DNA from: Chloroflexota bacterium
Lineage (GTDB): Bacteria; Chloroflexota; Anaerolineae; Anaerolineales; Villigracilaceae
DNA length: 64,000 bases
Direction of reading: 5' to 3'
Assembly: GCA_021787595.1 (NCBI GenBank)
Contig: JAJYLQ010000020.1
Coordinates: forward strand, 1-64,000
The number at the start of each line of letters is the position of its first letter. Position 1 is the first letter of the stretch. The notes under the pieces are model-generated. The model was not told where the DNA came from, did no database searches, and worked only from the letters and a program-made list of their open reading frames with translations. The translations under genes were made by a program, and so were the position numbers. Shown here piece by piece: positions 32,864-63,325 of this stretch.

Positions 32864-32930
32864 GTCTAAGACTTTTCTTAGACGACTTAAAACAAGTCTT
32901 AGAGCTGCGCCTGAATGAATTCCCTATAAT
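32864..32930 (+). promoter_or_regulatory. Promoter of the dsr operon with two operator palindromes
   Basis: Site A is CTAAGACTTTTCTTAG (32866-32881, 16 bp), extended by one base on each side to GTCTAAG and CTTAGAC. Four bases later comes site B, CTTAAAACAAGTCTTAG (32886-32902). Twenty-two bases after B is TATAAT (32925-32930), with no good -35 box. The layout is repeated at 58485-58551 on the other strand, where site A is identical. A transcription start near 32937 would give a short leader before the first gene at 32956. This is probably an activator-dependent promoter. Confidence 0.75.
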
Positions 32931-32955: not shown

Positions 32956-33147
32956 ATGCAGATCGTATTTGCCGCAGTCGGAATCATCGTCATTTTCTGG
33001 GTTGTGTTTTGGCTGGCGCAAAGGGTTGCGTCGCACGCCTCGGACGCCCGTGATGTGCGCCACACACTGGAGACCGGTGCACGGATGCTTGGCGGAAGCG
33101 ATTATTTGCGCTCCTACCCGCCGGTCAAGTCTGAGGATGAAATGTAA
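32956..33147 (+). CDS. Small single-helix membrane protein, first gene of the dsr operon
   Basis: The 63-residue protein has an N-terminal transmembrane helix (QIVFAAVGIIVIFWVVFWLA) and a short charged tail (ARDVRHTLETGARMLGG). I do not recognise a family. It starts about 20 bases after the expected transcription start and has AGAAACA upstream, a weak ribosome site. Its place at the head of the operon suggests a role with the exporter or the respiratory complex. About 230 bases to the next gene hold no further ORF of note. Confidence 0.55.
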   Translation: MQIVFAAVGIIVIFWVVFWLAQRVASHASDARDVRHTLETGARMLGGSDYLRSYPPVKSEDEM

Positions 33148-33376
33148 GACGCAGTACCTCGCGATCCGCACGGCGTCCGGGGATGGCCCGTGCCTCATTG
33201 ACAAGTGATCGCTGAACCTCGTTCGACGTGTCGGTGCCTTCGCAGCCGGACATGAAGCGAAGTTCGCGGGAAAGGAGAGGATCCGAGTAAAAAAGAATAG
33301 GTTTGTTTTCCGCGGACGGATTGGAAAAGATATCTTTTTGATCGTGCACCTAAAATATTGAAGGAGATGTGATCTT

Positions 33377-34735
33377 ATGGCAACTCATGTAAATGTAGCG
33401 CCCGCCGCCACACCTGCCAAGCGCAAGATTGACTGGAGTTCGCTTTGGAAAAAGGAAGACTGGTGGGCAGTCTATCTCGGCTTGTTCTTCGTGGTCATCG
33501 CGTATATCGCCATGGCGATAAACCCGAAGAATTCGCCTCTAAACATTGTCAAAGCCGCGACGCCAGCCGTTTGGCCCAAGACTAGCCTGCTGGCTAACCT
33601 TGGCGCCAACTGGGGCAGCTACGTGTTCCTATACGTGTTGCTGCTTGTCCTGACATTGATTGCTTCTCTTCTGATGGGAGAAAAAGCCGGTAACTACATC
33701 AAGGGATTCACTGTGCTGTTCATCCTGGGCCTGCTTACTCTCATCATTGGCACCTGGCAGTTCTTCAATAAATATGGCCTTGAATATCCGTTCTGGGCGC
33801 TAGTCATTGGGATGATCATCGGCAACATCTGGACTTTCCCGGAATGGTTCCAGGCCGCATCCAAGCGCACCGAGTTCTTTATCAAGACTGCCATTGTCCT
33901 GCTGGGCGCGTCGCTTTCCTTTACCGCGGTCGTGCAAGGCGGCGGTTGGGGCTTTCTGGAAGCGCTGATCATCGTGGCCGGCGGTTTCACCGTGGCGTTC
34001 GTCATTGGCAGAGCTTTGGGCTTCGATCAGAAGTTCGCCGCTGTGCTCGGCGCGGGCGCGTCGGTGTGCGGTATCTCCGCTGCGATCGCGATGGGCAGCA
34101 GCGTAAAGGAAGAAGAGAAAAAGATCAGCTATGTTCTCTCGCTGGTCATGATTTATGCCCTGATATTGATCTTCCTGCTGCCGCTGCTGTCTAAAGGCCT
34201 GTTCATGTTGAACGATTACGTGTCGGGAGCATGGATTGGCGGTTCGGAATTGGCGGATGCCGCCGGCCTGGCGAGCGCAGGAATGATCGGTGAAAAAGCT
34301 GTTCAGGCGTTCACGCTGGTGAAACTGAACCGCGACATTATGATCGGCTTCCTGTGCTTCATTTTTGCATGGATCGCCGCAACTTCGTGGGAGAAGAACG
34401 CCGAAGGCAAAGCAGACCCGATGGTGATCTGGTATCGCTTCCCCAAATTCGTCGTTGCCTTCTTCCTCGTCTCGTTCGTCGTCACCTCGTTTGTCGTGAG
34501 CTATACCCAGCCCGTCGTGAATGTACAGTTCATCGCCAATCTAAATACGATCCGTACCTGGTTGTTTGTGATGGCCTTCCTGTGCATTGGGTTGAACATG
34601 AAGTTCAAAGAGATACGAGCGATGGGCAGTAAGCCGTTGATCGCCTTTACGGTCGTTGCGCTGGTCAACGTGATTCTGGGCTTCATTTGCGCGAACCTGT
34701 TCTTCGGAGGCATCCTGGCAGCACCGCTCCACTAA
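33377..34735 (+). CDS. YeiH-family putative sulfate/sulfite exporter
   Basis: The 452-residue, strongly hydrophobic protein matches the YeiH/UPF0324 family (putative sulfate exporters). The central GASVCGISAAIAMGSSVKEEE and SGAWIGGSELADAAGLAS segments are typical of it. Roughly 10-12 transmembrane helices are visible, with an extra N-terminal soluble segment (residues 1-28). Location at the head of a sulfite-reductase operon supports a role with an oxidised sulfur anion or a sulfonate, but direction and substrate are not known. A ribosome site AAGGAG precedes the ATG. Confidence 0.8.
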   Translation: MATHVNVAPAATPAKRKIDWSSLWKKEDWWAVYLGLFFVVIAYIAMAINPKNSPLNIVKAATPAVWPKTSLLANLGANWGSYVFLYVLLLVLTLIASLLMGEKAGNYIKGFTVLFILGLLTLIIGTWQFFNKYGLEYPFWALVIGMIIGNIWTFPEWFQAASKRTEFFIKTAIVLLGASLSFTAVVQGGGWGFLEALIIVAGGFTVAFVIGRALGFDQKFAAVLGAGASVCGISAAIAMGSSVKEEEKKISYVLSLVMIYALILIFLLPLLSKGLFMLNDYVSGAWIGGSELADAAGLASAGMIGEKAVQAFTLVKLNRDIMIGFLCFIFAWIAATSWEKNAEGKADPMVIWYRFPKFVVAFFLVSFVVTSFVVSYTQPVVNVQFIANLNTIRTWLFVMAFLCIGLNMKFKEIRAMGSKPLIAFTVVALVNVILGFICANLFFGGILAAPLH

Positions 34736-38690: not shown

Positions 38691-40136
38691 ATGGCCAAGT
38701 TTGATGAAACTCCCATCGTAAAAGATCCCGCTGTGAATGGCGTGTTGTCGGCGCCAAAGCTTCGCGAGCATGCTTCCGCAGAGGTTCGCTGCCATCCCAG
38801 CAAGCCTAAGGATACTGCCGCGATTGACCTGCCCACCGAACGCGTCCCCGATTGGCAGGAGCGCGCCGTTGCCAAGCTTGGAGAATTGCTCGAGAAGAAC
38901 AAGGCGCTGCGCGTCTATATGGACATCTGCGTCCGCTGCGGGGCCTGTACCGACAAATGCCCGTTCTTTTTGGGGACGGGCGACCCGCAGAATTTTCCGG
39001 TGGCGCGCGCTGAACTGATGCGAAAAGTCTACCGCCGCTACTTCACTCCGGCGGGTCTTTTCCCGGACCTCGGAGAGGCTGCCGATTTCGACGAGGAAAT
39101 GCTCCAGAAGTGGTACACCTACTTCTATCAATGCTCGGAATGCCGGCGCTGTTCGGTCTTTTGCCCGTACGGGATCGATACCGCCGAGATCACCATCGCT
39201 GCCCGAGAGATCATGGCTTCGATTGGCGTCGCCACCAAGTATGTAACGGAGGTGGTCGCAAAAGTTTACTCGACGGGCAATAATCTCGGCATCCCGCCTG
39301 CCGGATGGAAGGATAACTGCGAGTTCCTCGAGAGCGATGTCAAAGAAGAAACTGGCCTTTCGGTCCGTTTTCCCGTAGACGAGAAAGGCGCCGAGGTGCT
39401 GCTCGTGCCTCCCTCCGCCGACAACTTTGCCAACACCGACACGATGATCGGCTATGGAAAGTTGTTCCATTTCTTGGGCGTCAGTTGGACGACCAGCACG
39501 TATTGCAATGAGGCGGGCAACTTCGGCCTCTTTCTCAATTTCGCCAACCTGAAAAAAGTCAACCGCCGCATTCTCGATGCGGCCCGCGACCTGGGCGTCA
39601 AGACCATCATCTGGGGCGAATGCGGGCATGCCTGGCGCGCTGGCATTTACACGCCCACTCTCAACGGCCCGATGGACGATTTCGAGCCGCCTTATCCTTA
39701 TCACATCAGCCAGTACATCGTGGACATGCTTCACAAGGGCGCCTTCGAGGGGCACATTGATAAATCTGCCAATGATGAATACCTCGTTACCTATCACGAT
39801 CCATGCCAGTCGGCCCGCGCCGGTTATCTCATCGAGGAACCGCGCGAGATCATCCGTGCCGTCTGCAACCGTTTTGTGGAAATGCCGGATGGCACCATCC
39901 GCCAGAAAACCTTTTGCTGCGGCGCCGGCAACGGACTGCTGACTGATGAGATCATGCCCATCCGCATGGCAGGCGGCAAGCCGCGCGCCATGGCGGTTAA
40001 ACACACCGGAGCCAATTACCTGGCGACGGTCTGCGCGATCTGTAAGGCGCAGTTGCCGGAGTCCATGCACTATTGGGATGTGCCTGTCAAGGTGGGCGGC
40101 GTGATTGATTTGTTGGCGCGCGCCATCAAGATGTGA
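38691..40136 (+). CDS. dsrK: DsrK, HdrD-like iron-sulfur subunit
   Basis: The 481-residue protein is cytoplasmic and related to heterodisulfide reductase HdrD. It has two [4Fe-4S] ferredoxin motifs (C80, C83, C86 and C90 in DICVRCGACTDKC, and YQCSECRRCSVFCPYG) and C-terminal CCG-type motifs (YHDPCQSAR, TFCCGAGNGL, TVCAICKAQL) for the non-cubane cluster that reduces the DsrC trisulfide. The start 9 bases after dsrM indicates co-transcription. The order dsrM-K-J is conserved. Confidence 0.92.
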   Translation: MAKFDETPIVKDPAVNGVLSAPKLREHASAEVRCHPSKPKDTAAIDLPTERVPDWQERAVAKLGELLEKNKALRVYMDICVRCGACTDKCPFFLGTGDPQNFPVARAELMRKVYRRYFTPAGLFPDLGEAADFDEEMLQKWYTYFYQCSECRRCSVFCPYGIDTAEITIAAREIMASIGVATKYVTEVVAKVYSTGNNLGIPPAGWKDNCEFLESDVKEETGLSVRFPVDEKGAEVLLVPPSADNFANTDTMIGYGKLFHFLGVSWTTSTYCNEAGNFGLFLNFANLKKVNRRILDAARDLGVKTIIWGECGHAWRAGIYTPTLNGPMDDFEPPYPYHISQYIVDMLHKGAFEGHIDKSANDEYLVTYHDPCQSARAGYLIEEPREIIRAVCNRFVEMPDGTIRQKTFCCGAGNGLLTDEIMPIRMAGGKPRAMAVKHTGANYLATVCAICKAQLPESMHYWDVPVKVGGVIDLLARAIKM

Positions 40137-40150
40137 GTTCGGAGCCTTTG

Positions 40151-40447
40151 ATGCGTAAAGTAGCTTTGTCTTTGGTTGCCGTTGGTATCCTGCTCCTGGT
40201 CGCGGCTTGGTATCCGCACTATGTGGAAAAGCCGGTCAAGGATGGAAAAGGACCTTTATCTGTTTATGTTGACCCCAGTCTGTCGGCTCCCGAATATCAC
40301 AGCCCACTGGACTGGTGGGAACTGCATCATGCAGATATTCTGAATCGCGGCGATTTGACCCAATCCGATTGTTTGCAGTGCCATGATCCTGAAAGGTCCT
40401 GCAACCACTGCCACCGCTATGTGGGCGTGGCGGAGATCACTCCCTGA
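40151..40447 (+). CDS. dsrJ: DsrJ-like periplasmic cytochrome c with two CxxCH motifs
   Basis: The 98-residue protein has an N-terminal membrane anchor (ALSLVAVGILLLVAAWYP) and a short extracytoplasmic part with CLQCH and CNHCH near the C-terminus. Family DsrJ normally binds three haems, and only two CxxCH sites are visible here, so it is either a shortened DsrJ or one with an atypical third site. HADILNRGD precedes the haem region, as in DsrJ. A GTG at 40133 overlapping dsrK is an alternative start, but GGAG before 40151 supports the ATG. Confidence 0.78.
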   Translation: MRKVALSLVAVGILLLVAAWYPHYVEKPVKDGKGPLSVYVDPSLSAPEYHSPLDWWELHHADILNRGDLTQSDCLQCHDPERSCNHCHRYVGVAEITP

Positions 40448-40471
40448 ACGATCCGGGCGAATGGTTGAAAT

Positions 40472-40924
40472 ATGACAACGACGAATCCTTCTCAAACACC
40501 AAGACCATCGGTCTTCACCGCACGCCGCCAGTTCATTCAACTTGGCCTGGCAGCGGTTGGTGCAGTCTGGTTGGGGACCTGGCTGCAGTCGCTCCTGTTC
40601 CCTTCGCAGAATACTTCACAAGCGGCCCAGCCGGTTTCTTTTCCGCTGGCTGATCTGCCGGTGGGCGGGACCAAAGCGATCAGCTATGGCGGCCTGCCTG
40701 TCCTGGTATTGCGTACGCCGGAAGATTTGCGCGCGTTCTCTCTGGTCTGCACACATCTCGGTTGTACGGTCCAGTGGCAGGCGGGTGGAAAGGAATTCTA
40801 TTGTCCCTGTCATGGCGGCCGCTACGATGAATTTGGCGATGTGCTGTCCGGCCCGCCTCCAATTCCGCTGGAACAAATCCCAGTGCAGGTGAAAGGGCAA
40901 ACGGTAACGGTCGGTGAGATGTGA
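40472..40924 (+). CDS. Rieske [2Fe-2S] protein with Tat signal
   Basis: The 150-residue protein has a Tat-like signal (ARRQFIQLGLAAVGAVW) and a Rieske domain with ligands C93 and H95 (CTHLGC) and C111 and H114 (CPCHGG), plus the disulfide pair C98 and C113. Rieske proteins move electrons in quinol-oxidising complexes. One inside a dsr operon is not part of the standard DsrMKJOP complex, so it probably serves the Mo-family module that follows. No cytochrome b partner of bc1 type is in the operon. Confidence 0.85.
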   Translation: MTTTNPSQTPRPSVFTARRQFIQLGLAAVGAVWLGTWLQSLLFPSQNTSQAAQPVSFPLADLPVGGTKAISYGGLPVLVLRTPEDLRAFSLVCTHLGCTVQWQAGGKEFYCPCHGGRYDEFGDVLSGPPPIPLEQIPVQVKGQTVTVGEM

Positions 40925-40937
40925 TGGATAAAATAAC

Positions 40938-41306
40938 ATGAAATACTTCCTGATCCTTTTCGGTGCGCTACTCTTGTGCGTGTCTTTATTGCTGGGAACA
41001 CCCTCGTCAACGAAGGCGTTGCCCGAATACGCGGCTCAAACCGGCGAACCGTGTGCAACCTGCCATGTCAGTCCATCGGGAGGTGGGCCGCGCACCCCGC
41101 GCGGTCTGGCGTGGGTGGCTTTGGGCAAGACGGGCAATGTGCCGGATTTGACGCAGTCGCTGGAAATACTGGGGGTCAAGCTCAGCGTGGATTCGGCTTA
41201 TTACACGGTGGCAAATTCCCAGGTCCAGGCGGCGGAAGTGTTAAACGCCGCGCCGGCTCAAGGTCAAAAATTATTCCGTTGGCTGAGTCAACATGACGGC
41301 AATTGA
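40938..41306 (+). CDS. Small secreted monohaem c-type cytochrome
   Basis: The 122-residue protein has a signal peptide (FLILFGALLLCVSLLLG) and a single haem site CATCH (C39-H43) early in the mature part. The tail (KLSVDSAYYTVANSQVQAAEVLNAAP) shows no further haem site. I do not recognise the family. It overlaps the next gene by 14 bases and probably carries electrons to or from the complex encoded there. Confidence 0.75.
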   Translation: MKYFLILFGALLLCVSLLLGTPSSTKALPEYAAQTGEPCATCHVSPSGGGPRTPRGLAWVALGKTGNVPDLTQSLEILGVKLSVDSAYYTVANSQVQAAEVLNAAPAQGQKLFRWLSQHDGN

Positions 41307-43659
41307 TTCCAAACCCACGTCGCGGATTTCGCGCCGGGACTTTATCAAAGTCGGCGCGGCAACGGCCGTGGCCGGGGCGGGCCTGGCCGCGTTGAAAAGT
41401 GCTGACAAGCCGCTTACAGTCCAGACTGTTCCATTGGAGGAGACGGTTGTCAAAACCACCTGTGCGCTGTGCCCGTCGGGGTGCGGGCTGAACGTGCGCG
41501 TGGTCAATGGAAAGGCTGTGAAGGTGGAAGGCAATCCGCTCCATCCGCTGAATCAAGGTGTATGCTGCTTGAAAGGGCAGACCGCGCTGGAAGTGTTGTA
41601 CAGCCCCGAACGGATCGAGCATCCCCGCATCCAAACCGGGGAACGCGGGTCGGGTGACTGGAAGGAAATTTCCTGGGATGAAGCGCTGGGCATCGTCGCG
41701 AGCAAAATGGCCGGACTGCGTTCCTCCGGCAAGGCACACGGCGTGGCGCTCATGCACGGCGATTTGTGCGGAGAGATGCGCCAGGTGGTCCAGCGTTTCA
41801 TGCAGGCATACGGATCGCCCAATGTGATTTCACGTGAAAGCCTGGGCGAGGATGCGGCCCGCATGGCCATGTGGTTTTCGCAGGGCGTGAACGTTTTGCC
41901 GGTCTATGATATTGCCAGCGCCAATTATGTGATGACTTTTGGCGGCAACCTGCTCGAGACCAGCCGGAACCTGATCGGTTATCTGGGAGCAGCCGCTTTC
42001 ATGCACCGCGGCCGCCCGGAGCGCGGCAAGCTGGTCGCGGTACATCCGCGCCGTTCTGTGACCGGCATCAAGGCCGACGAATGGATTCCCATCCGCCCCG
42101 GCACCTACGGCGCGCTGGCGCTGGGCATGGCGAACGTCATCATCAACAGCGGATTGTATGATGAAAACTTCGTGCGCGACTTTACTTTTGGCTTCGACGA
42201 CTTCACGGACACAGACGGGAATTCTCATCAGGGATTCAAATCGCTGGTTCTGGAGTCTTACACTCTTGACCGCGTCTCGGCTGTTACGGGCGTCGCCACC
42301 GATGTTATCGCCCGCGTGGCTGGCGAGTTCGCTTCCAATCGCCCGGCCATCGCGGTAATGCCGACCGAAGCAGGCGAACTTTCCAGCGGCAGTGCGCTTT
42401 ATACAGCGCTGGCGGTGCACGCGCTCAACGCGCTGATCGGCTCGATTGACGCCAAGGGCGGTGCGATCGTTCAACGTTTCCCCGATTTGAAGGATTGGCC
42501 GTACTACATGCCCGACTCGACCGCGCTGGTGGGCGGATCCAAAGAGCGCGTGGACGGCGCCGGGACGCAATTTCCGCTGGCGATATCCGTGTACCAGAAT
42601 GTCCCCGAACGCATCCTGGCCGGCGAGCCGTATCCGCTGGAAATGCTCATGCTCTTGAACGCCAACCCGGCGTATGACATGCCGAACAACGGACGCTGCG
42701 TCGAGGCATTGTTGAAGGTCCCGTTCGTTGTCAGCTTTGCGCCCACCCTGGACGAAAGCGCGGCACATGCCGATTTGATTCTGCCCGCCAGCACTTTCCT
42801 CGAAATCTGGGGCGACGATTATCTGGAAGGCACGGGTTTCCCCGGCATTTCCCTGCGCCGCCCAGTAGTGGAACCCGTCCACGACACACGCGATCCCGGC
42901 GATGTGTTGCTCGATCTCGCTCACCGTCTTGGCGGACCTCTGGCAGAAGCCTTCCCCTGGACTTCTTACAAAGATTTGATGCTCGATCGTTTATCCGGCT
43001 TCGATTGGAAAAAATTCGAAGCCAATGGCAACTGGTCACAGTTGGTTTACTTCAATGCCGTGCCTGGCAGCCAGGCCTGGAATGAAGTGGTGGGACGCGA
43101 CCGCTTGAACGCTCCCAAAGATGGAAGATTCGATTTCTTCTCCCGCGAATTATTCGCCCTGCTCGGTTCGGACTCCAGCCAGGCCTGCCTGCCGCACTTC
43201 GAGATTCCCTCCACCCTGGCAGACAGCACGGCCGGCGCGCTCGAATATCCGTTCCTGCTTGTGACCCAGCCGTTGATCACGCAGTCGCAGGAGTGGCAGG
43301 GCATTATCCCGACCCTGGAGGAATGTTACGGCTTGCAGGGCAACGTCAAATGGGACAGTTGGGTCGAGGTCAGCCAAAAGGCTGCGGACGCCCTCGGACT
43401 GCAAAACAATGACCGGGTCTGGATCGAATCGGCGGCGGACCGCGTGCAGGCTGTGGTGCGCGTCCGGGCGGGCTTGTGGCCCGATGCGGTCTTCCTGCCG
43501 CCCGGCCAGGGACATCGCACCCTGGTGCGCTGGGGCCGTTACGCAGACGATAACTTCGTGGTGGGCACGAATCCCAACGCGTTGATCGAATTCAGCAGCG
43601 AACCGTTGACTGGGCTGGCCGTCTCCGGCCCGGCGCGCGTCCGCATTTATCGTGTTTGA
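41293..43659 (+). CDS. Molybdopterin-family oxidoreductase catalytic subunit (PsrA/PhsA or QrcB-like)
   Basis: The 788-residue protein begins with a Tat signal (SRRDFIKVGAATAVAG), then a [4Fe-4S] site at C57, C60, C64 and C91 or C92 (CALCPSGCG and GVCCLKG). The long domain of the DMSO-reductase family follows (DWKEISWDEALGIVASKM, LLNANPAYDMPNN, VSFAPTLDESAAHADLILP). Candidates are a polysulfide or thiosulfate reductase or the Qrc-type menaquinone reductase, which keeps the fold. The protein ligand to Mo cannot be decided without alignment. It overlaps the cytochrome gene by 14 bases and precedes an FeS subunit and an NrfD subunit, as in Psr, Qrc and ActABC sets. Confidence 0.82.
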   Translation: MTAIDSKPTSRISRRDFIKVGAATAVAGAGLAALKSADKPLTVQTVPLEETVVKTTCALCPSGCGLNVRVVNGKAVKVEGNPLHPLNQGVCCLKGQTALEVLYSPERIEHPRIQTGERGSGDWKEISWDEALGIVASKMAGLRSSGKAHGVALMHGDLCGEMRQVVQRFMQAYGSPNVISRESLGEDAARMAMWFSQGVNVLPVYDIASANYVMTFGGNLLETSRNLIGYLGAAAFMHRGRPERGKLVAVHPRRSVTGIKADEWIPIRPGTYGALALGMANVIINSGLYDENFVRDFTFGFDDFTDTDGNSHQGFKSLVLESYTLDRVSAVTGVATDVIARVAGEFASNRPAIAVMPTEAGELSSGSALYTALAVHALNALIGSIDAKGGAIVQRFPDLKDWPYYMPDSTALVGGSKERVDGAGTQFPLAISVYQNVPERILAGEPYPLEMLMLLNANPAYDMPNNGRCVEALLKVPFVVSFAPTLDESAAHADLILPASTFLEIWGDDYLEGTGFPGISLRRPVVEPVHDTRDPGDVLLDLAHRLGGPLAEAFPWTSYKDLMLDRLSGFDWKKFEANGNWSQLVYFNAVPGSQAWNEVVGRDRLNAPKDGRFDFFSRELFALLGSDSSQACLPHFEIPSTLADSTAGALEYPFLLVTQPLITQSQEWQGIIPTLEECYGLQGNVKWDSWVEVSQKAADALGLQNNDRVWIESAADRVQAVVRVRAGLWPDAVFLPPGQGHRTLVRWGRYADDNFVVGTNPNALIEFSSEPLTGLAVSGPARVRIYRV

Positions 43660-43686
43660 TCGGAATTTTATTTCTGGAGGCAGAAC

Positions 43687-44373
43687 GTGACCCGCTGGGG
43701 AATGGTGATTGACCTGGATAAATGTGTGGCCTGTCAGAGCTGTACCGCAGCCTGCCGGATGGAGAACAACACGCCCGTTGCCGGGAAGAATCAGGCTGAT
43801 ATGGGGCGCACGATCTTGTGGAACGAGGTGCTGCCTTTGGCGAACAGCGAATCTCCCGATGCCAGCGAGATGTTGATCCCGCGCCCCTGCATGCACTGCG
43901 ATGATCCTCCCTGCGTGAAGGTTTGCCCGGTTCAAGCCACGTATCGAACCGATGAAGGCGTCGTACTGATCAACTATGACCGCTGCATTGGCTGCCGCTT
44001 CTGCACGGTGGCTTGCCCCTTCCAGGTGCGCTACTTCAACTGGTTCGAACCCGAATGGCCCGAAGCGCTCAAAGCCCATCTCAATCCTGATCCCGAGGTT
44101 GCGCCGCGTCCCAGAGGCGTGGTCGAGAAATGCACCTTCTGTGTCCAGCGTTTACGCAAGGCGCGTGAAACGGCGCAGGCTGAAGGCCGTCCATTTTCCG
44201 CTACGGATTATGTCCCGGCTTGTGTGGAAACCTGCACGGCTCACGCGCGTTATTTCGGCGATCTCGACGATCCGAACAGCCTCGTGTCGCAGCTGGCGGC
44301 CAGTCCGCGTGCCTTCAGGTTACAGGAAGAGATGGGCACAAAGCCGAAGGTCTATTACTTGAAACAAGGATGA
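43687..44373 (+). CDS. Four-cluster ferredoxin subunit (NrfC/PsrB/DsrO-like)
   Basis: The 228-residue protein has no signal peptide, and four [4Fe-4S] clusters are implied: KCVACQSCTAACR (C13-C23), CMHCDDPPCVKVCP, CIGCRFCTVACP with the later VEKCTFC, and the last CVETCTAHARYFGD. It is the electron-transfer subunit between the Mo-family protein and the NrfD membrane subunit. The order matches PsrABC and QrcBCD. Absence of an own signal suggests export as a complex with the Tat-bearing subunit. GGAGG precedes the start. Confidence 0.88.
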   Translation: MTRWGMVIDLDKCVACQSCTAACRMENNTPVAGKNQADMGRTILWNEVLPLANSESPDASEMLIPRPCMHCDDPPCVKVCPVQATYRTDEGVVLINYDRCIGCRFCTVACPFQVRYFNWFEPEWPEALKAHLNPDPEVAPRPRGVVEKCTFCVQRLRKARETAQAEGRPFSATDYVPACVETCTAHARYFGDLDDPNSLVSQLAASPRAFRLQEEMGTKPKVYYLKQG

Positions 44374-44383
44374 TTCACTACAA

Positions 44384-45739
44384 ATGACTTCAATTCCTAG
44401 CCGCGAATCTGAACTTGAACGGATTGTCCTGGCGCCATTGCGCCGGACTTCCAAACAGTTTTATGTGGTGCTAGCCGGCCTGAGTCTCGTCGTCCTTCTG
44501 GGCGCGGCGGCGCTTGCGAATCAGTGGCGGCTGGGGCTGGGTGTTACCGGCCTCAACCGACCCGTTTACTGGGGCGTTTACATTACCAATTTCGTGTTCT
44601 TCATCGGCATCAGCCATGCCGGGACCCTGATCTCCGCCATCCTGCGCGTGACTCAGGCGGAGTGGCGCCGGCCAATCACACGCATCGCGGAGGCCATCAC
44701 ATTCTTTGCCCTCATTATCGGTATGCTTCAAGTCTGGATTGACATGGGACGGCCGGAACGAATTATCTTTCCCTTCATCTTTGGCCGCTTCCAGTCGCCC
44801 TTCTTGTGGGACTTCACTTGCGTTGGCGTTTACTTCATGAGCAGTATGCTTTATCTGTATCTTCCGCTCGTGCCTGATCTGGCACGCCTGCGTGACCGCA
44901 TGACCGATGCCCCGCGCTGGAGACACTGGTTGTATACGGTCATGTCATTCGGCTGGCATGGGAACGCGGAGCAGCATCGCCGCCTGGAGATCGCCATCGG
45001 CATCATGGCAATCGTCATCATCCCGGTCGCGGTTTCGGTGCATACGGTCGTCTCGTGGATTTTCGGCATGACCATGCAGCCGATGTGGCATTCCACGATC
45101 CTTGGCCCTTATTTCGTGGTCGGTGCGATCTTCTCCGGCATCGCCATGCTTTTCCTGTTCATGACGCTCCTGCGCCGCGCCTGGCATCTCGAGCTGTGGA
45201 TCGGCGAGAAGCAATATAACTATCTCGGTATCTTGCTGCTGGTGATGAGCGCCTTCTGGGGCTACTTCACCCTGGCTGAGTTTTTGACCACCGGTTACAG
45301 CACGATCACCAACGAGACCGCAGTCTTTCATGCCAAATTGCTTGGCGAGTACGCGCCTGCTTTCTGGGCCATGGTCACGGCCAATTTGGTGATCCCTTTT
45401 GCGGTCCTGATGCGTCGCCAGGGACGCAAACCGCTGGGCACGTTCATCGCCGCGCTTTCGGTCATCATCGGCATGTGGATCGAACGATTCCTGATTGTGG
45501 CGCCCAGCCTCACCCGGCCCTCGCTCGGATTCATGCCGGCTGTTTATACACCGTCTCTCACAGAAGTGGCGATCACGGCTGGGTCGTTCGCATTGTTCGC
45601 CCTGCTTTTCCTGCTGTTCTTCAAGGTTTTCCCAGCCATCTCGGTTTGGGAGGTCGAAGAAGGCCAGGCAGTCGAGGCGGTAAGACAAAAGGCGCGCGAA
45701 CTGGCGCACGAAGGCGCGCAGCCGGCGCTCAGGAGTTGA
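44384..45739 (+). CDS. NrfD-family membrane subunit (ActC/QrcD/DsrP-like)
   Basis: The 451-residue protein has about ten transmembrane helices and the family marks GLNRPVYWGVYITNFVFF and GISHAGTLISAILRVTQAEWRRP, with HTVVSWIFGMTMQPMWHST further on. These suggest a quinone-interacting NrfD-type subunit, closest by eye to ActC/QrcD. It is predicted to exchange electrons with menaquinone on behalf of the FeS and Mo-family subunits. It may take the place of DsrP in the DsrMKJOP complex. It is followed by a small membrane gene 2 bases later. Confidence 0.85.
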   Translation: MTSIPSRESELERIVLAPLRRTSKQFYVVLAGLSLVVLLGAAALANQWRLGLGVTGLNRPVYWGVYITNFVFFIGISHAGTLISAILRVTQAEWRRPITRIAEAITFFALIIGMLQVWIDMGRPERIIFPFIFGRFQSPFLWDFTCVGVYFMSSMLYLYLPLVPDLARLRDRMTDAPRWRHWLYTVMSFGWHGNAEQHRRLEIAIGIMAIVIIPVAVSVHTVVSWIFGMTMQPMWHSTILGPYFVVGAIFSGIAMLFLFMTLLRRAWHLELWIGEKQYNYLGILLLVMSAFWGYFTLAEFLTTGYSTITNETAVFHAKLLGEYAPAFWAMVTANLVIPFAVLMRRQGRKPLGTFIAALSVIIGMWIERFLIVAPSLTRPSLGFMPAVYTPSLTEVAITAGSFALFALLFLLFFKVFPAISVWEVEEGQAVEAVRQKARELAHEGAQPALRS

Positions 45740-58389: not shown

Positions 58390-58446
58390 GTGAATCACCT
58401 GTCCCGGATCTCAAGGATGTGCAGGACAATAAATTCGATAATGCAA

Positions 58447-58482
58447 AATCAGATTGACATCTCGATGAGAGTCAATCTGATT
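58447..58482 (-). promoter_or_regulatory. Extended inverted repeat at the start of transcription of the DsrK/M/O/P-like operon
   Basis: AAATCAGATTGAC and GTCAATCTGATTT are perfect 13-bp arms, with TCTC/GAGA continuing the pairing inside around a bulged A. The element begins just after the expected -10 box (58485-58490), so it would overlap the transcription start and leader. It may be a repressor operator or a leader hairpin. The first promoter lacks it. Confidence 0.6.
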
Positions 58483-58484
58483 TC

Positions 58485-58551
58485 ATTATAGGAAGTTTAT
58501 GGAGTCCCAGGCCTAAGACATGCTTTAAGCAGCCTAAGAAAAGTCTTAGGC
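58485..58551 (-). promoter_or_regulatory. Promoter with two operator palindromes, twin of the dsr promoter
   Basis: Read on the minus strand: site A CTAAGACTTTTCTTAG (58549-58534), 4 bases, site B CTTAAAGCATGTCTTAG (58529-58513), 22 bases, TATAAT (58490-58485). Site A is identical to the one at 32866-32881, site B matches at 15 of 17 positions, and the spacings are the same. Both promoters share CCTATAATGAA around the -10 box. No clear -35 is seen. The target is the operon ending at 53533. Confidence 0.8.
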
Positions 58552-58651: not shown

Positions 58652-59305
58652 TCATTCGACGATTTCGGGGCTTACCAGATGCTTTCGGGCGGCGAAGCGA
58701 ATTAATTCGACTGTGTTCTGCACGCCAAACTTCATCATGACATTCGTGCGATGCACGGAGACCGTCTTGGGGCTGATGCCAAGTTTCTGGGCAATCTCCT
58801 TGTTGCTCTTTCCCTCTACAGTCAATTGCAGCACCTGATGTTCCCGTTCTGTCAAATGCTGCGCATCGCCTCCGTGATATTCTCCATCCTGAGAATATCC
58901 CTGCAGGACTTCCCTGGTAATGTTACTCGGCAGGAACGTGCCCTGCTCATAAACCTGTCTCAGGGCATTGAGCATCTCGCGCCTTCCAGATCGCTTCAGC
59001 ACATACCCTGCAGCGCCTGCCTGCAGGACCGGTATGATATACTCGCGATTGTCGTGCTGGGTCAGGATCAGCACTTTGACTCGCGGGAAATGTTCCTTGA
59101 TGAAACGCGTGGCCTCGAACCCGTTCAACTTGGGCATGGAGAGATCCATGAGGACGATATCAGGCAGCGATTTTTTGACGTTTTCGATCGCTTCGGACCC
59201 GTCGGCTGCTTCGCCCACGACGATGATATCCTCCTGGCTTTCCAGAATGGACCGAATTCCATCGCGTAAAATAGCGTGATCGTCGGCCACAAGAACTCTA
59301 ATCAT
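58652..59305 (-). CDS. NarL-type response regulator adjacent to the sulfur operon
   Basis: The 217-residue protein has a receiver domain (MIRVLVADDHAILRDG, phosphoacceptor D54 in IVLMDLSMPK, VLILTQHDN, Lys in YVLKRSG) and a LuxR helix-turn-helix (LTEREHQVLQLTVEGKSNKEIAQKLGISPKTVSVHRTNVMMKFG). The start at 59305 overlaps the kinase stop by 8 bases, so translation is coupled. Its gene ends next to the twin-operator promoter. It is the best candidate for the protein that binds the CTAAGACTTTTCTTAG sites, but that is inference. Confidence 0.85.
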   Translation of the reverse strand: MIRVLVADDHAILRDGIRSILESQEDIIVVGEAADGSEAIENVKKSLPDIVLMDLSMPKLNGFEATRFIKEHFPRVKVLILTQHDNREYIIPVLQAGAAGYVLKRSGRREMLNALRQVYEQGTFLPSNITREVLQGYSQDGEYHGGDAQHLTEREHQVLQLTVEGKSNKEIAQKLGISPKTVSVHRTNVMMKFGVQNTVELIRFAARKHLVSPEIVE

Positions 59306-61760
59306 AGGCAAATTCCCTTTCTGGAATGGGAACGCGGATTTGAATTTGTGTTCCGCTTCCGGGAGCGGTACGGATTTCCATCTCGCCTCCCAGCAACTCG
59401 ATCCGTTCCTGCATGCCGAGGATGCCGAGGCCGCGCATCTCACCCGCCAAAAGCAGATCTTTGTCCTGATTATCTTGGGAGGCTGCCATACTTAACTCGG
59501 TCAAATCGAATCCAATGCCGTCGTCGGTGATGTTCACTTTGGCTGTGCCGTCCTGCAGTTCCATTTTGATGCGAACGTTGCGGGCCGCCGCGTGGCGGGC
59601 AATGTTGTTGATGGCTTCCTGTATCACGCGATAGAGTGCTGTTTCAGTTTCGGGTGATAGGCGCGGAAATTCTGCCTCGCCATCCAGGGAATTAACGCTG
59701 GAACTGGCCTCCACGGTTACGTGGATGCCCTTGGGCTTGAGTCGGGTCTTAGCCAGCCAGCGCAGGGCCGGGACCAGTCCCAACTGATCGAGCATCGAGG
59801 GGCGCAAGTCAAAGATCAGTTTATGGATATTGTCCAGTGTATGCTGGGTCAGGCCGCAGATCCTTTGCAGCCTCTCCCCGGTCGCTGAATGCGCGTCCCT
59901 TTCCATCTCGCCTTCCGCTTCGTAGAGCAGGGCAGTGAGCGATTGACTGATCTCGTCGTGTAATTCCCGGGCAATACGCTTGCGTTCGTCTTCCTGGGCG
60001 GCCAAAGCGTCCTTGAACAACCTGCCGCGGACCCGTTCCTTGCGCTGCACTTCGGCATACAGGCGGGCGTTCTCGACGGCGATTGCTATTTGACTGCCGA
60101 TGGCTGTGAGCAACTTTTGTTTTTCCTCCTCGAACTGTTGGTCACCGCGGGTGCCCACACACATGCTGCCTAGGGCCGAGCCTTTGGTCATCAGCGGCAC
60201 ATGCATCAGGGCAGTAACATGTTCCCGCCGCAGCGATTCGGCTCCCCGCCCGCGATAAGGGGAGAGGTCTGGCACGATCATGACCTTTTCGATTTCCATT
60301 ACACCGCCGCAGGAACTATCCAACAGTCCCACTTGATGGGCCAGGCGGGCGGCATTTTCAGAAAGTCCGCGGTACGCCATCAGTTTCAACTGCCTCCTTG
60401 CCGGGTCCTGCAGGAAGATCGCTACCATGTCAATCCCGGCAAGCTGGGAGACCTCTCCCAGGGCCCGGTTCAGGATGTCTTCCAAATTGAGCGATTGGTT
60501 GATTGTCAGAGCCACCGCATTCAACGTGGACAATTGCTGGGTGCGCTCCCGCACACGATTGTCCAATTCATGATTCCACAACCGGATTTCTTCCAGGGAC
60601 TGCTGCAAACGTGTGCACATGCTGATGAAACTGTGGGACAGGATTCCAATTTCGTCGCGGCGGGCAGCTTTTCGGGTCAACGATGCGGACAGCGTACATT
60701 CGACGGATTCCAGCGTCGAGGTATCGAACTGCACATCGCCAACTTTGCGCGCCGCCTCGGTGAGCATTTGGACAGGCGCGATCACGCTGCGGGTTGTTAT
60801 AAGCACCAGCACAAGCGCTCCCAGCAATGTCAGGGATCCAAAGGCCAAAACCTGTATCACCAGGTTCCGCACAGGGTCGAACAACTCCTGTGGATCGTGC
60901 CAGAATACAATTCCCCAGGGGACCCGTGAGAGCGGGGCAAAGGCAATTACGGTGCCTGTGCCTGTGTCTGTCAACTCGTTCCCTGTGCAGCCCAGACAGC
61001 CCTGTACTGGCTCTCCTTTGGCAAATAATTGACGGGTCACATCTTCCATCATGTTGGGCGGAAGCCTTTGGTCTGCCCGCGAACTGACCAGAACTTGTCC
61101 GCTCTCATCCAGGACCTGCAAGGTCCCGCTTTGTTCCAGTTCCAGTGAACCGCTGGATTGGAAAATATCTGGATTGGAGAGGTCCAGCACGGCTGCCAGG
61201 CTGCCGACCGGGATTTTGCTGCCCGGGCGCATGACGGGCACAGCAATGATCGCATAAGGCCGCGGCATCCCCTCCGCTGAAATACTGGAGGATGAACTGT
61301 CTTGCAACGCGGAAACCCGCTTCCAGTCCACATTTGGAACGGCGGATGTGGCAGCAATCAAGTTGGCATTCAGATCGAACAAGTAAATTCCCTGTACGGC
61401 ATGAAAATCCTTTTCGAAAACCACCCGCCAGTCTTGAAGGTTGGCCTGAGGATCATCCACGTTGATTTGTGAAGACAGGATCGTAAGCAGGCCGCTGATC
61501 TGCCCCAGATTGGAGTCCAAATTCTCCGCAAGAATGCTGGCATGCAGCGCGTGCTCATTCAATAGCTGCTGGGTTACCTGGCGGATGGTGACGACGCCGA
61601 TGTAAGCGGAAATGGCAATTAGACCCGTCAGGCCTATGATGACCAACGCAGTGATCTTGGCACGCAGGCCAATATCAAACCAGTCCTGGGCAGCGAGGCG
61701 ACTCAGCCAGTTGCGAAAGCGCTGTTTCCGGCTTGAAAAGGACTTCTCTATTTCCTTCAT
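59298..61760 (-). CDS. NarX-type sensor histidine kinase with extracytoplasmic sensor domain
   Basis: The 820-residue kinase has a helix at about 36-58, an extracytoplasmic Cache-like domain of about 240 residues, a second helix near 301-322, a HAMP-type linker and a GAF domain around 420-570. The HisKA_3 dimerisation domain has H601 (ARELHDEISQSL), and the ATPase domain has NIARHAAARNV and TDDGIGFD. A CLGC motif (C255, C258) lies in the extracytoplasmic part, near the end of the sensor domain, and might sense redox state or bind a metal or a sulfur species. The downstream NarL-type regulator is its partner. Confidence 0.87.
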   Translation of the reverse strand: MKEIEKSFSSRKQRFRNWLSRLAAQDWFDIGLRAKITALVIIGLTGLIAISAYIGVVTIRQVTQQLLNEHALHASILAENLDSNLGQISGLLTILSSQINVDDPQANLQDWRVVFEKDFHAVQGIYLFDLNANLIAATSAVPNVDWKRVSALQDSSSSSISAEGMPRPYAIIAVPVMRPGSKIPVGSLAAVLDLSNPDIFQSSGSLELEQSGTLQVLDESGQVLVSSRADQRLPPNMMEDVTRQLFAKGEPVQGCLGCTGNELTDTGTGTVIAFAPLSRVPWGIVFWHDPQELFDPVRNLVIQVLAFGSLTLLGALVLVLITTRSVIAPVQMLTEAARKVGDVQFDTSTLESVECTLSASLTRKAARRDEIGILSHSFISMCTRLQQSLEEIRLWNHELDNRVRERTQQLSTLNAVALTINQSLNLEDILNRALGEVSQLAGIDMVAIFLQDPARRQLKLMAYRGLSENAARLAHQVGLLDSSCGGVMEIEKVMIVPDLSPYRGRGAESLRREHVTALMHVPLMTKGSALGSMCVGTRGDQQFEEEKQKLLTAIGSQIAIAVENARLYAEVQRKERVRGRLFKDALAAQEDERKRIARELHDEISQSLTALLYEAEGEMERDAHSATGERLQRICGLTQHTLDNIHKLIFDLRPSMLDQLGLVPALRWLAKTRLKPKGIHVTVEASSSVNSLDGEAEFPRLSPETETALYRVIQEAINNIARHAAARNVRIKMELQDGTAKVNITDDGIGFDLTELSMAASQDNQDKDLLLAGEMRGLGILGMQERIELLGGEMEIRTAPGSGTQIQIRVPIPEREFAYD

Positions 61761-61917: not shown

Positions 61918-62712
61918 TCATTCCAGGGAAAATTCAGCCTCGGGTCTGAACCATTTCAAGGTCGAGCGCAGGTTGACCACTTCGCCAACGACAATAATGG
62001 CCGGAGGCCGGATCTCACCTGCTTTATCCAGGATATTTGCCAGTGTCCCTGCCAGGACTTTTTGACCTGGCAGCGTTCCTTGTTCGATCAGTGCAACCGG
62101 TGTTTCGGACGGACGGCCTGCTTCTTTCAAAGACGCGACGATCGCTGGCAGATTGTGTACGCCCATCAGGAAGACCAATGTATCAATGCCCTGTGCCAGT
62201 GCTTCCCAGTTCAAGTCGAGCGGCTCCGATTTGGCGCAGTGACCAGTCACGAAGGCCACGCTGGCCGCCATACCGCGGTGCGTCACAGGGATGCCTGCAT
62301 AAGCCGGGACCGCAATCGCGCTGCTCACGCCCGGTACGACCTCGAAAAGGATGCCGGCTTCCGCCAAAGCCTGCGCTTCTTCGCCGCCGCGGCCGAATAC
62401 AAAGGGATCTCCTCCTTTCAGCCGCACAACGATTTGGCCCCGGCGCGCCTCCTCGATCAATATGCTGTTGATGCGTTCCTGTGGAATGGGGTGGTGATCG
62501 GGTTCCTTGCCGGCGTCGATTAATTTGGCCTGTGGAGCATAATCGAGGAGCAGGTTGTTGGCGAGGCGATCATACACGACGACCTCAGCTTTGCGCAGGC
62601 AATCGAGCCCGCGCAGCGTGAGCAGGCCGGGATCGCCCGGACCGCCGCCAACCAGATAGACTATTCCAGCAGGGTCCTTCCCATTATTTCTGGTGCAGTA
62701 GTGCTCGTCCAT
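61918..62712 (-). CDS. cobA: Uroporphyrinogen-III C-methyltransferase
   Basis: This enzyme (SUMT, also called CobA or SirA) methylates uroporphyrinogen III twice to give precorrin-2, the branch point to sirohaem and cobalamin. The 264-residue protein has VYLVGGGPGDPGLLTLRG, DRLANNLLLDYAP, RLKGGDPFVFGRGGEEA and VVPGVSSAIAVPAYAGIPVTHRG, all family signatures. Its gene overlaps the precorrin-2 dehydrogenase gene by 29 bases. With dsrN and hemA in the dsr operon, it supplies the sirohaem of sulfite reductase. Confidence 0.93.
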   Translation of the reverse strand: MDEHYCTRNNGKDPAGIVYLVGGGPGDPGLLTLRGLDCLRKAEVVVYDRLANNLLLDYAPQAKLIDAGKEPDHHPIPQERINSILIEEARRGQIVVRLKGGDPFVFGRGGEEAQALAEAGILFEVVPGVSSAIAVPAYAGIPVTHRGMAASVAFVTGHCAKSEPLDLNWEALAQGIDTLVFLMGVHNLPAIVASLKEAGRPSETPVALIEQGTLPGQKVLAGTLANILDKAGEIRPPAIIVVGEVVNLRSTLKWFRPEAEFSLE

Positions 62713-63325
62713 AAGTCAGCGCCACATCTTTCCCGTGTGTTTGGATGATGTCCAGAATATCTGAATCGATTAGGCACAGGGCGGCCTGCAGGCGGGCTTC
62801 GCCGGTTGGAAAACTGGCGATCAGTTCCGGGCGCAGTTCGGCCAGCACTTCGGTCAGCACGCCGTACTCCGATCCGATCAACACCTCGAGACGTTCGCGC
62901 AGCCTGCGCGCCAGTGCCGGGCTGCCTCCGCCGGTTGAGATCGCAATGCTCATTTCGCCGCGCTGGACTATTGCCGGCAAAGTGAAGTTGCTATGCTCTG
63001 GATCATCTACAACGTTAATGAGACAGCCGCGTTCTTGCGCCTCGCGCCACACACATTGATTCACGGCTGTATCGTCCGTGGCAGCAATAACCAGAAATGC
63101 GCCGCCAAGATCCCCGTCCTGATAGGAACGCGCTAGAAAAGTGATTTCGCCGGAATCAGCCAACACTTGCAACTCTGGCGCAAGCGCGGGGCTGATGACT
63201 TTGACCTTGGCTCCAGAAGCCAGCAACCTCTGAACTTTTCGAGCAGCGACTTTTCCCCCGCCAACCACAACCGTTTTATGGAGTTGCTGTCCTATCAGAC
63301 ATATTGTGTAATTTATCACTATCAT
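62684..63325 (-). CDS. sirC: Precorrin-2 dehydrogenase / sirohydrochlorin ferrochelatase-type protein
   Basis: This 213-residue protein is the NAD-dependent oxidase (CysG N-terminal/SirC/Met8 family) that turns precorrin-2 into sirohydrochlorin, and in Met8-type enzymes also inserts iron. It has [28 protein letters not shown], a later [14 protein letters not shown] and [14 protein letters not shown] near the C-terminus. The true start may be further in, because [12 protein letters not shown] is atypical, so I kept the 63325 start with caution. No separate SirB-type chelatase gene is nearby. Confidence 0.88.

Follow-up and report, generated by a model that had tools for sequence, protein, structure and literature searches.

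To our knowledge, the control of dsrAB transcription is poorly understood. HcpR, a regulator of the CRP/FNR family with the operator TTGTGAN6TCACAA, has been predicted to act over sat and apsAB, and in the available portion of that study dsrAB is noted as absent (PMC545781). Neither dsr nor sulfite reductase appears as a term in the available part of a response-regulator map of D. vulgaris (PMC3333781), and that of a review of 950 dsrAB genomes lacks the term regulator (PMC10591310). narX-like and luxR-like genes are present in gammaproteobacterial reverse-dsr clusters, according to the accessible text of a paper that also cites an investigation of how dsr is regulated in Allochromatium vinosum (PMC4411801), and a LuxR-related regulator gene flanks dsrAB in the single-cell genome DEH-C11 of the Dehalococcoidia, another Chloroflexota class (PMC4959651, accessible text). 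The response regulator UvrY binds TGTAAG-N6-CTTACA; its main targets are csrB and csrC, and its site lies far upstream, at about -183 (PMC4682653, available portion). The literature searched, which leaves out most subscription papers, yielded no dsr regulator with a defined operator.

The window analysed here (the whole stretch of DNA, bases 1-64000 of contig C55 in a Chloroflexota genome of 4.08 Mb and 63 contigs) contains two promoters, P1 and P2, with the same twin-operator layout. P1, on the + strand, has operator A at 32866-32881 (core TAAG-N6-CTTA at 32867-32880), operator B at 32886-32902 (core TAAA-N6-CTTA at 32888-32901) and a TATAAT -10 box at 32925-32930; P2, on the - strand, has an identical operator A at 58534-58549, operator B at 58513-58529 (core TAAA-N6-CTTA) and TATAAT at 58485-58490. 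This layout had been described in the first-pass annotation, and direct comparison of sequences and coordinates agrees with it throughout: site A is common to both promoters at 16/16 positions and site B at 15/17, the A-B gap is 4 bp and the gap from B to TATAAT 22 bp in both, CCTATAATGAA surrounds both -10 boxes, and the two face opposite ways. It is better to regard operators A and B as copies of a single palindrome, TAAG-N6-CTTA, with TAAA as the left half of B. Their centres are 21 bp apart in both promoters, and the end of B's CTTA lies 23 bp before the -10 box. If transcription starts 7 bp past the -10 box, operator A is centred at about -63.5 and operator B at about -42.5, over the position expected for a -35 element. 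P1 is without a -35-like hexamer; the slot reads GAGCTG there and GGCCTG at P2, and in consensus promoter scans no -35/-10 pair uses either -10 box. Judged from the sequence and this presumed start, both have the features of activator-dependent sigma-70 promoters, namely a -10 box, no -35 element and a candidate activator site near -41. P1 and P2 are 86% identical over the operators, 31% upstream and 38% downstream.

Site A is rare. With up to three mismatches it matches three times in the window (both A sites and, on the other strand, operator B of P1), and 100 shuffles gave a mean of 0.17 matches, with 0/100 reaching three. In the whole genome only the two A sites are found at up to two mismatches (the reversed pattern has 3 matches on one strand and 4 on the other), the looser CTAAGN6CTTAG is found only at the P1 and P2 places (6 for its reversed pattern), and the full pattern of twin operators and -10 box, at up to three mismatches, is again found only at P1 and P2 (control, 0). 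Copies scattered without regard to promoters, which would speak against a regulatory role, are not what the genome contains, since there are two places only. Chance, a dispersed repeat or the end of a mobile element might be suspected as the source of the match because the exact 16-bp site also occurs in 13 stretches of a viral collection, but there site A stands without its partner (twin pattern in 0/13 stretches searched). With two genome copies, and the layout conserved at one operon in 11 genomes (below), such an origin has virtually no likelihood, and it was set aside on the genome-wide counts. The idea that the dsr operon and a second electron-transfer operon have a promoter layout in common is supported by this rarity and by conservation in relatives (below); the further idea that the two form a regulon stands as regards the shared promoter on both, which in turn suggests co-regulation. 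P1 and P2 are the only two members detected in this genome.

The putative operon behind P1 (32956-51387, + strand), recognized by gene order and profile matches, begins with a 63-aa ORF, a YeiH-family transporter, dsrA, dsrB, dsrC, dsrM and dsrK. These are followed by genes for a small CxxCH protein, a Rieske protein, a small cytochrome and a PhsA/QrcB-like molybdoprotein, then a QrcC/DsrO-like protein, a DsrP-like protein and a haem-containing 697-aa protein, and last by a DsrE-like gene, a gene of the cobyrinate amidase family (dsrN) and hemA. The region from dsrK to the DsrP-like gene (40133-45739), with its Rieske, PhsA/QrcB-like and QrcC/DsrO-like genes, has the same gene order in G041, G043, G363 and G077 and looks to encode an unusual Dsr/Qrc-like complex. 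The operon head appears to be mosaic: the 63-aa ORF and YeiH (32956-34735) match genome G298 of family f53 at 41% and 78-79%, and YeiH matches the YeiH genes of the promoter clade at only about 29-34%. The operon behind P2 (53533-58398, - strand) encodes a Hmc/Tmc/DsrK-like FeS protein, an HmcE/TmcC-like protein, an HmcB-like protein and an HmcC-like protein with a cytochrome tail, all of which score below the curated cut-offs of Hmc/Tmc-type models. At the start of the P2 transcript (58426-58488, - strand) a strong hairpin is predicted (-22.6 kcal/mol, z -4.9) from a folded stretch that takes in the end of the -10 box. G041 has, by eye, a similar inverted repeat at the same place, and the short P1 leader is without one.

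Among 396 sampled genomes of the class, dsrA is present in 16 (E up to 1e-50; G042 and G187, and likewise G045 and G339, have the same matches at the same coordinates and were counted once as G187 and G339, and G315, whose dsrA is in two pieces, was counted once). The twin pattern, searched as TAAGN6CTTAG-N6/7-TARR-N6/7-CYTA, is present in nine of the 396 (the reversed pattern has 4 matches): eight have dsrA (G000, G077, G175, G187, G192, G235, G292 and G363), and G383 does not (1/380 non-dsrA genomes). Fisher's test gives 8e-12 for this association, a value overstated by the relatedness of the genomes. The eight dsrA genomes without the pattern are seven of family f53 (G085, G163, G181, G278, G298, G315 and G339) and G193, whose DsrA is divergent (40% identical). 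Of 15 dsrA genomes compared, five (G363, G187, G292, G077 and G175) each have a single CTAAGN6CTTAG, located upstream of YeiH and dsrA, and the other ten have none; G041 and G043, reached through their dsrA loci, have it at the same place, and it was not found in L018, L019, L022 or L024 (Chloroflexota by title). The layout is therefore kept in related genomes at the head of the dsr operon; the first-pass annotation had named a lack of such conservation as grounds for refutation.

In a separate sample of 41 relatives, CTAAGN6CTTAG occurs in five: our own genome and G024, G028, G032 and G033, the last four with five copies in all and no dsrA beyond weak 29% matches. Weak dsrA matches of this kind in G013 and G033 (29% identity, E 2.5e-6 and 7.2e-5) were not counted as dsrA, and the G028 site was taken as unrelated; by eye it lies where a gene begins whose N-terminus looks HTH-like and whose neighbours resemble ABC-transport genes, and no B operator is visible. 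The genus mate G004, a 98%-complete bin in which dsrA was not detected, had seemed to be a counterexample, having the regulator but neither dsrA nor an exact site, and was dropped as such when a promoter with one mismatch was found there. Downstream of this promoter (contig C94, L214) are two small ORFs and then a YeiH gene truncated where the contig ends; the regulator, kinase and siroheme genes discussed below are on contig C38 (L172) near another contig end. Since YeiH leads the dsr operon in most relatives, G004 probably has dsr genes that were not assembled and are missing from the bin, and a binning gap may hide the operon.

Twelve promoters from 11 genomes align, with 1.4-1.6 bits per column in the operators and 1.7 in the -10 box, and only 0.13-0.38 in the gap, spacers and flanks. 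In the tabulated promoters the A-B centre distance is 21-22.5 bp and operator B lies 23 bp from the -10 box in 11/11 cases, and G004 fits the same fixed pattern. A bound regulator could in principle repress here, its occupancy of operator B blocking polymerase until a signal relieves the block, and the overlap of B with the -35 place, where repressors also bind, agrees with this; but no -35-like hexamer stands in the slot of the 11 promoters (except TTGATT in G192), and the constant 23 bp suits contact with polymerase, so that we regard repression as quite improbable and activation as the preferred reading. A third TAAG-N6-CTTA site is present upstream in G043 (L126:1471-1534), G187 (L132), G363 (L131) and G292 (L133), with an opposite-strand -10-like box 23-24 bp beyond it. 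This possible divergent promoter faces, by eye, P-type ATPase genes (G043, G292), a TerC-like gene (G187) and a radical-SAM gene (G363).

The adjacent two-component system, of NarL/GacA type, is most likely the reader of the P1 and P2 operators; the first-pass annotation had left the regulator unnamed. Its response regulator (58652-59305, - strand; 217 aa), the proposed operator binder, has a receiver and a LuxR-type HTH domain (PF00072 and PF00196 above cut-off) in the order typical of the NarL/FixJ (LuxR-HTH) type and a recognition helix that reads PKTVSVHR; the overlapping upstream gene, with PF07730 and PF02518, supplies the adjacent kinase of that type. Solved-structure relatives of the regulator include VraR, NarL and RcsB, and it matches the MctR, UvrY/SirA/GacA and NarL models, all below cut-off (165.2 bits against 280 for the UvrY/SirA/GacA model NF007018, which does not assign it to that family). 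The sensor histidine kinase (59298-61760, - strand), its proposed partner, has GAF, HisKA_3 and HATPase_c domains, sub-threshold dCache_1 and HAMP matches, and a CxxC in the sensor region. In the portion of the kinase alignment compared, this CxxC is present in G000, G004, G041, G043, G363 and G292 (the rows of G077, G192 and G235 are without the sensor region), five aligned f53 kinases have CxxCH in the sensor region, and a cysteine in CGGV of the GAF region is present in 14/14 rows. CxxCH is a c-haem-type motif, and as a guess the signal may be a redox, haem-ligand or sulfur-compound cue. Siroheme genes (61918-63325, - strand; a uroporphyrinogen-III methyltransferase and a CysG N-terminal type) lie next to the kinase and regulator genes, an arrangement also found in relatives.

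Some other transcription factor, from a gene elsewhere in the genome, might bind these operators, the neighbouring system controlling something else, for example siroheme synthesis. Candidates are many, as the regulator has 60 matches in its own genome at E up to 1e-3, and in G292, G077 and G192 it is neither on the dsrA contig nor near dsrA (in G292, as in G235, it is among other dsr-cluster genes away from dsrA, and in G077 and G192 it is beside siroheme genes). G175, moreover, has the sites, and the clade regulator was not found there among 11 matches at E up to 1e-30, none of the three checked by motif reading PKTxSVHR. Against this, G041 (72% identity), G043 (57%) and G363 (64%) have an orthologue on the same contig as dsrA, and in most genomes of f53 it is linked to dsr (on the dsrA contig in G181, G085, G163, G278 and G315, next to a YeiH gene in G298, but in G339 on a different contig). 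A tree of 40 regulator rows places the regulators of the motif genomes in one clade (98/97), which coincides with the motif in 10/11 genomes (the G187 member is a truncated gene, L192), and among the 41 relatives searched the regulator exceeds 50% identity only in its own genome and in G004 (79%), the best elsewhere being 48%. The geometry of the sites is also of the UvrY/GacA type. Together with the covariation described next, these points make an unrelated factor rather unlikely, and the adjacent system remains our choice.

The recognition helix and the half-site vary together. PKTVSVHR accompanies an operator B that ends in CTTA (G000, G004, G041, G043, G187, G292 and G363) and PKTASVHR one that ends in CCTA (G077, G192 and G235). 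In family f53, where the helices are VKTVMVH, VKTVMAH, EKTILAH or AKTVITH, the regulator adjoins dsr but the exact motif is missing; four of the seven genomes (G085, G163, G278 and G315) have shifted half-sites, TARR-N6/8-CYTA, 22-24 bp before TATAAT or TAAAAT and upstream of YeiH-dsr. These are the only four matches in the 122 kb searched (ten loci from the seven f53 genomes and G193); as controls, 30 shuffled sets gave none, and 1.13 Mb of dsr loci, most of them of other phyla, gave one. The scan was not blind, having been designed after palindrome and half-site searches had shown such sites, and with about three independent changes the covariation is suggestive only.

The best explanation, and one that we consider likely, is that P1 and P2 are activator-dependent sigma-70-type promoters under a dedicated two-component system that activates them through tandem operators; binding, activation, phosphorylation, the signal and co-transcription are what we infer from the nucleotide and protein sequences. 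The kinase would sense its signal and phosphorylate the response regulator, whose dimers would bind the two palindromes 21 bp, or two helical turns, apart. As operator B sits where a -35 element would be expected, with A just upstream of it, bound regulator would recruit RNA polymerase to TATAAT and so switch on the dsr and Hmc-like operons together. The near-uniqueness of the sites, their conserved spacing, their co-occurrence with dsr and the single regulator clade support this model; G175, with the promoter and without the clade regulator, and G383, with the twin pattern and without dsrA, speak against it. So do the regulators unlinked to dsrA in G292, G077 and G192, the lack of the exact motif in f53, the CTAAGN6CTTAG copies in four genomes that have no real dsrA, and the scores of related regulators, which fall short of all curated family cut-offs. 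P2 probably arose by duplication of the dsr promoter. G363 has hmcF-E-B-C downstream of dsrN, oriented like dsr, and a single occurrence of the twin pattern, ahead of the dsr operon; in the window the hmc operon runs opposite to dsr and has its own copy of the promoter. P2 would best be explained by a duplication that went with a rearrangement, under selection on the operators, rather than by an independently evolved operator pair. More tentatively, at somewhat less than an even chance, this may be a dedicated sulfur-respiration switch that has been co-inherited with dsr across Chloroflexota families, in which the kinase, through its extracytoplasmic CxxC (CxxCH in f53), senses redox or a sulfur compound and helix and half-sites have changed together. 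If so, the dsr regulatory code could be read from sequence in uncultured lineages.

The proposed system is like NarX-NarL in having a NarL-family regulator and a HisKA_3-type kinase beside a respiratory operon, but the NarL model is below cut-off and the target here is a reductive-type dsr. NarL heptamer sites also differ from the operators here. Like the HcpR regulon of Desulfovibrio (PMC545781, available portion), it would be a regulon of sulfate-reduction genes recognized by comparative genomics and marked by palindromic sites, but the operator at P1 and P2 is a different one and the nearby regulator is of another family. In DEH-C11 the LuxR-related gene served as a marker, and the words promoter, two-component and histidine kinase are absent from the accessible text (PMC4959651). 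BarA-UvrY and GacS-GacA (SirA) likewise have a LuxR-HTH response regulator, and the UvrY operator has the TAAG-N6-CTTA core seen at P1 and P2 (PMC4682653, available portion). The outer bases here are C/G, not the TG/CA of TGTAAG-N6-CTTACA, the kinase has GAF and HisKA_3 domains, and in place of the distant csrB/csrC site there is an operator pair at -63.5/-42.5 before respiratory genes. A cis-element, a candidate regulator and a kinase can now be named for dsr in uncultured Chloroflexota, which makes the control of sulfite respiration there testable. Systems of this kind are known; what appears to be new is the present member, with its operator code and its link to dsr.
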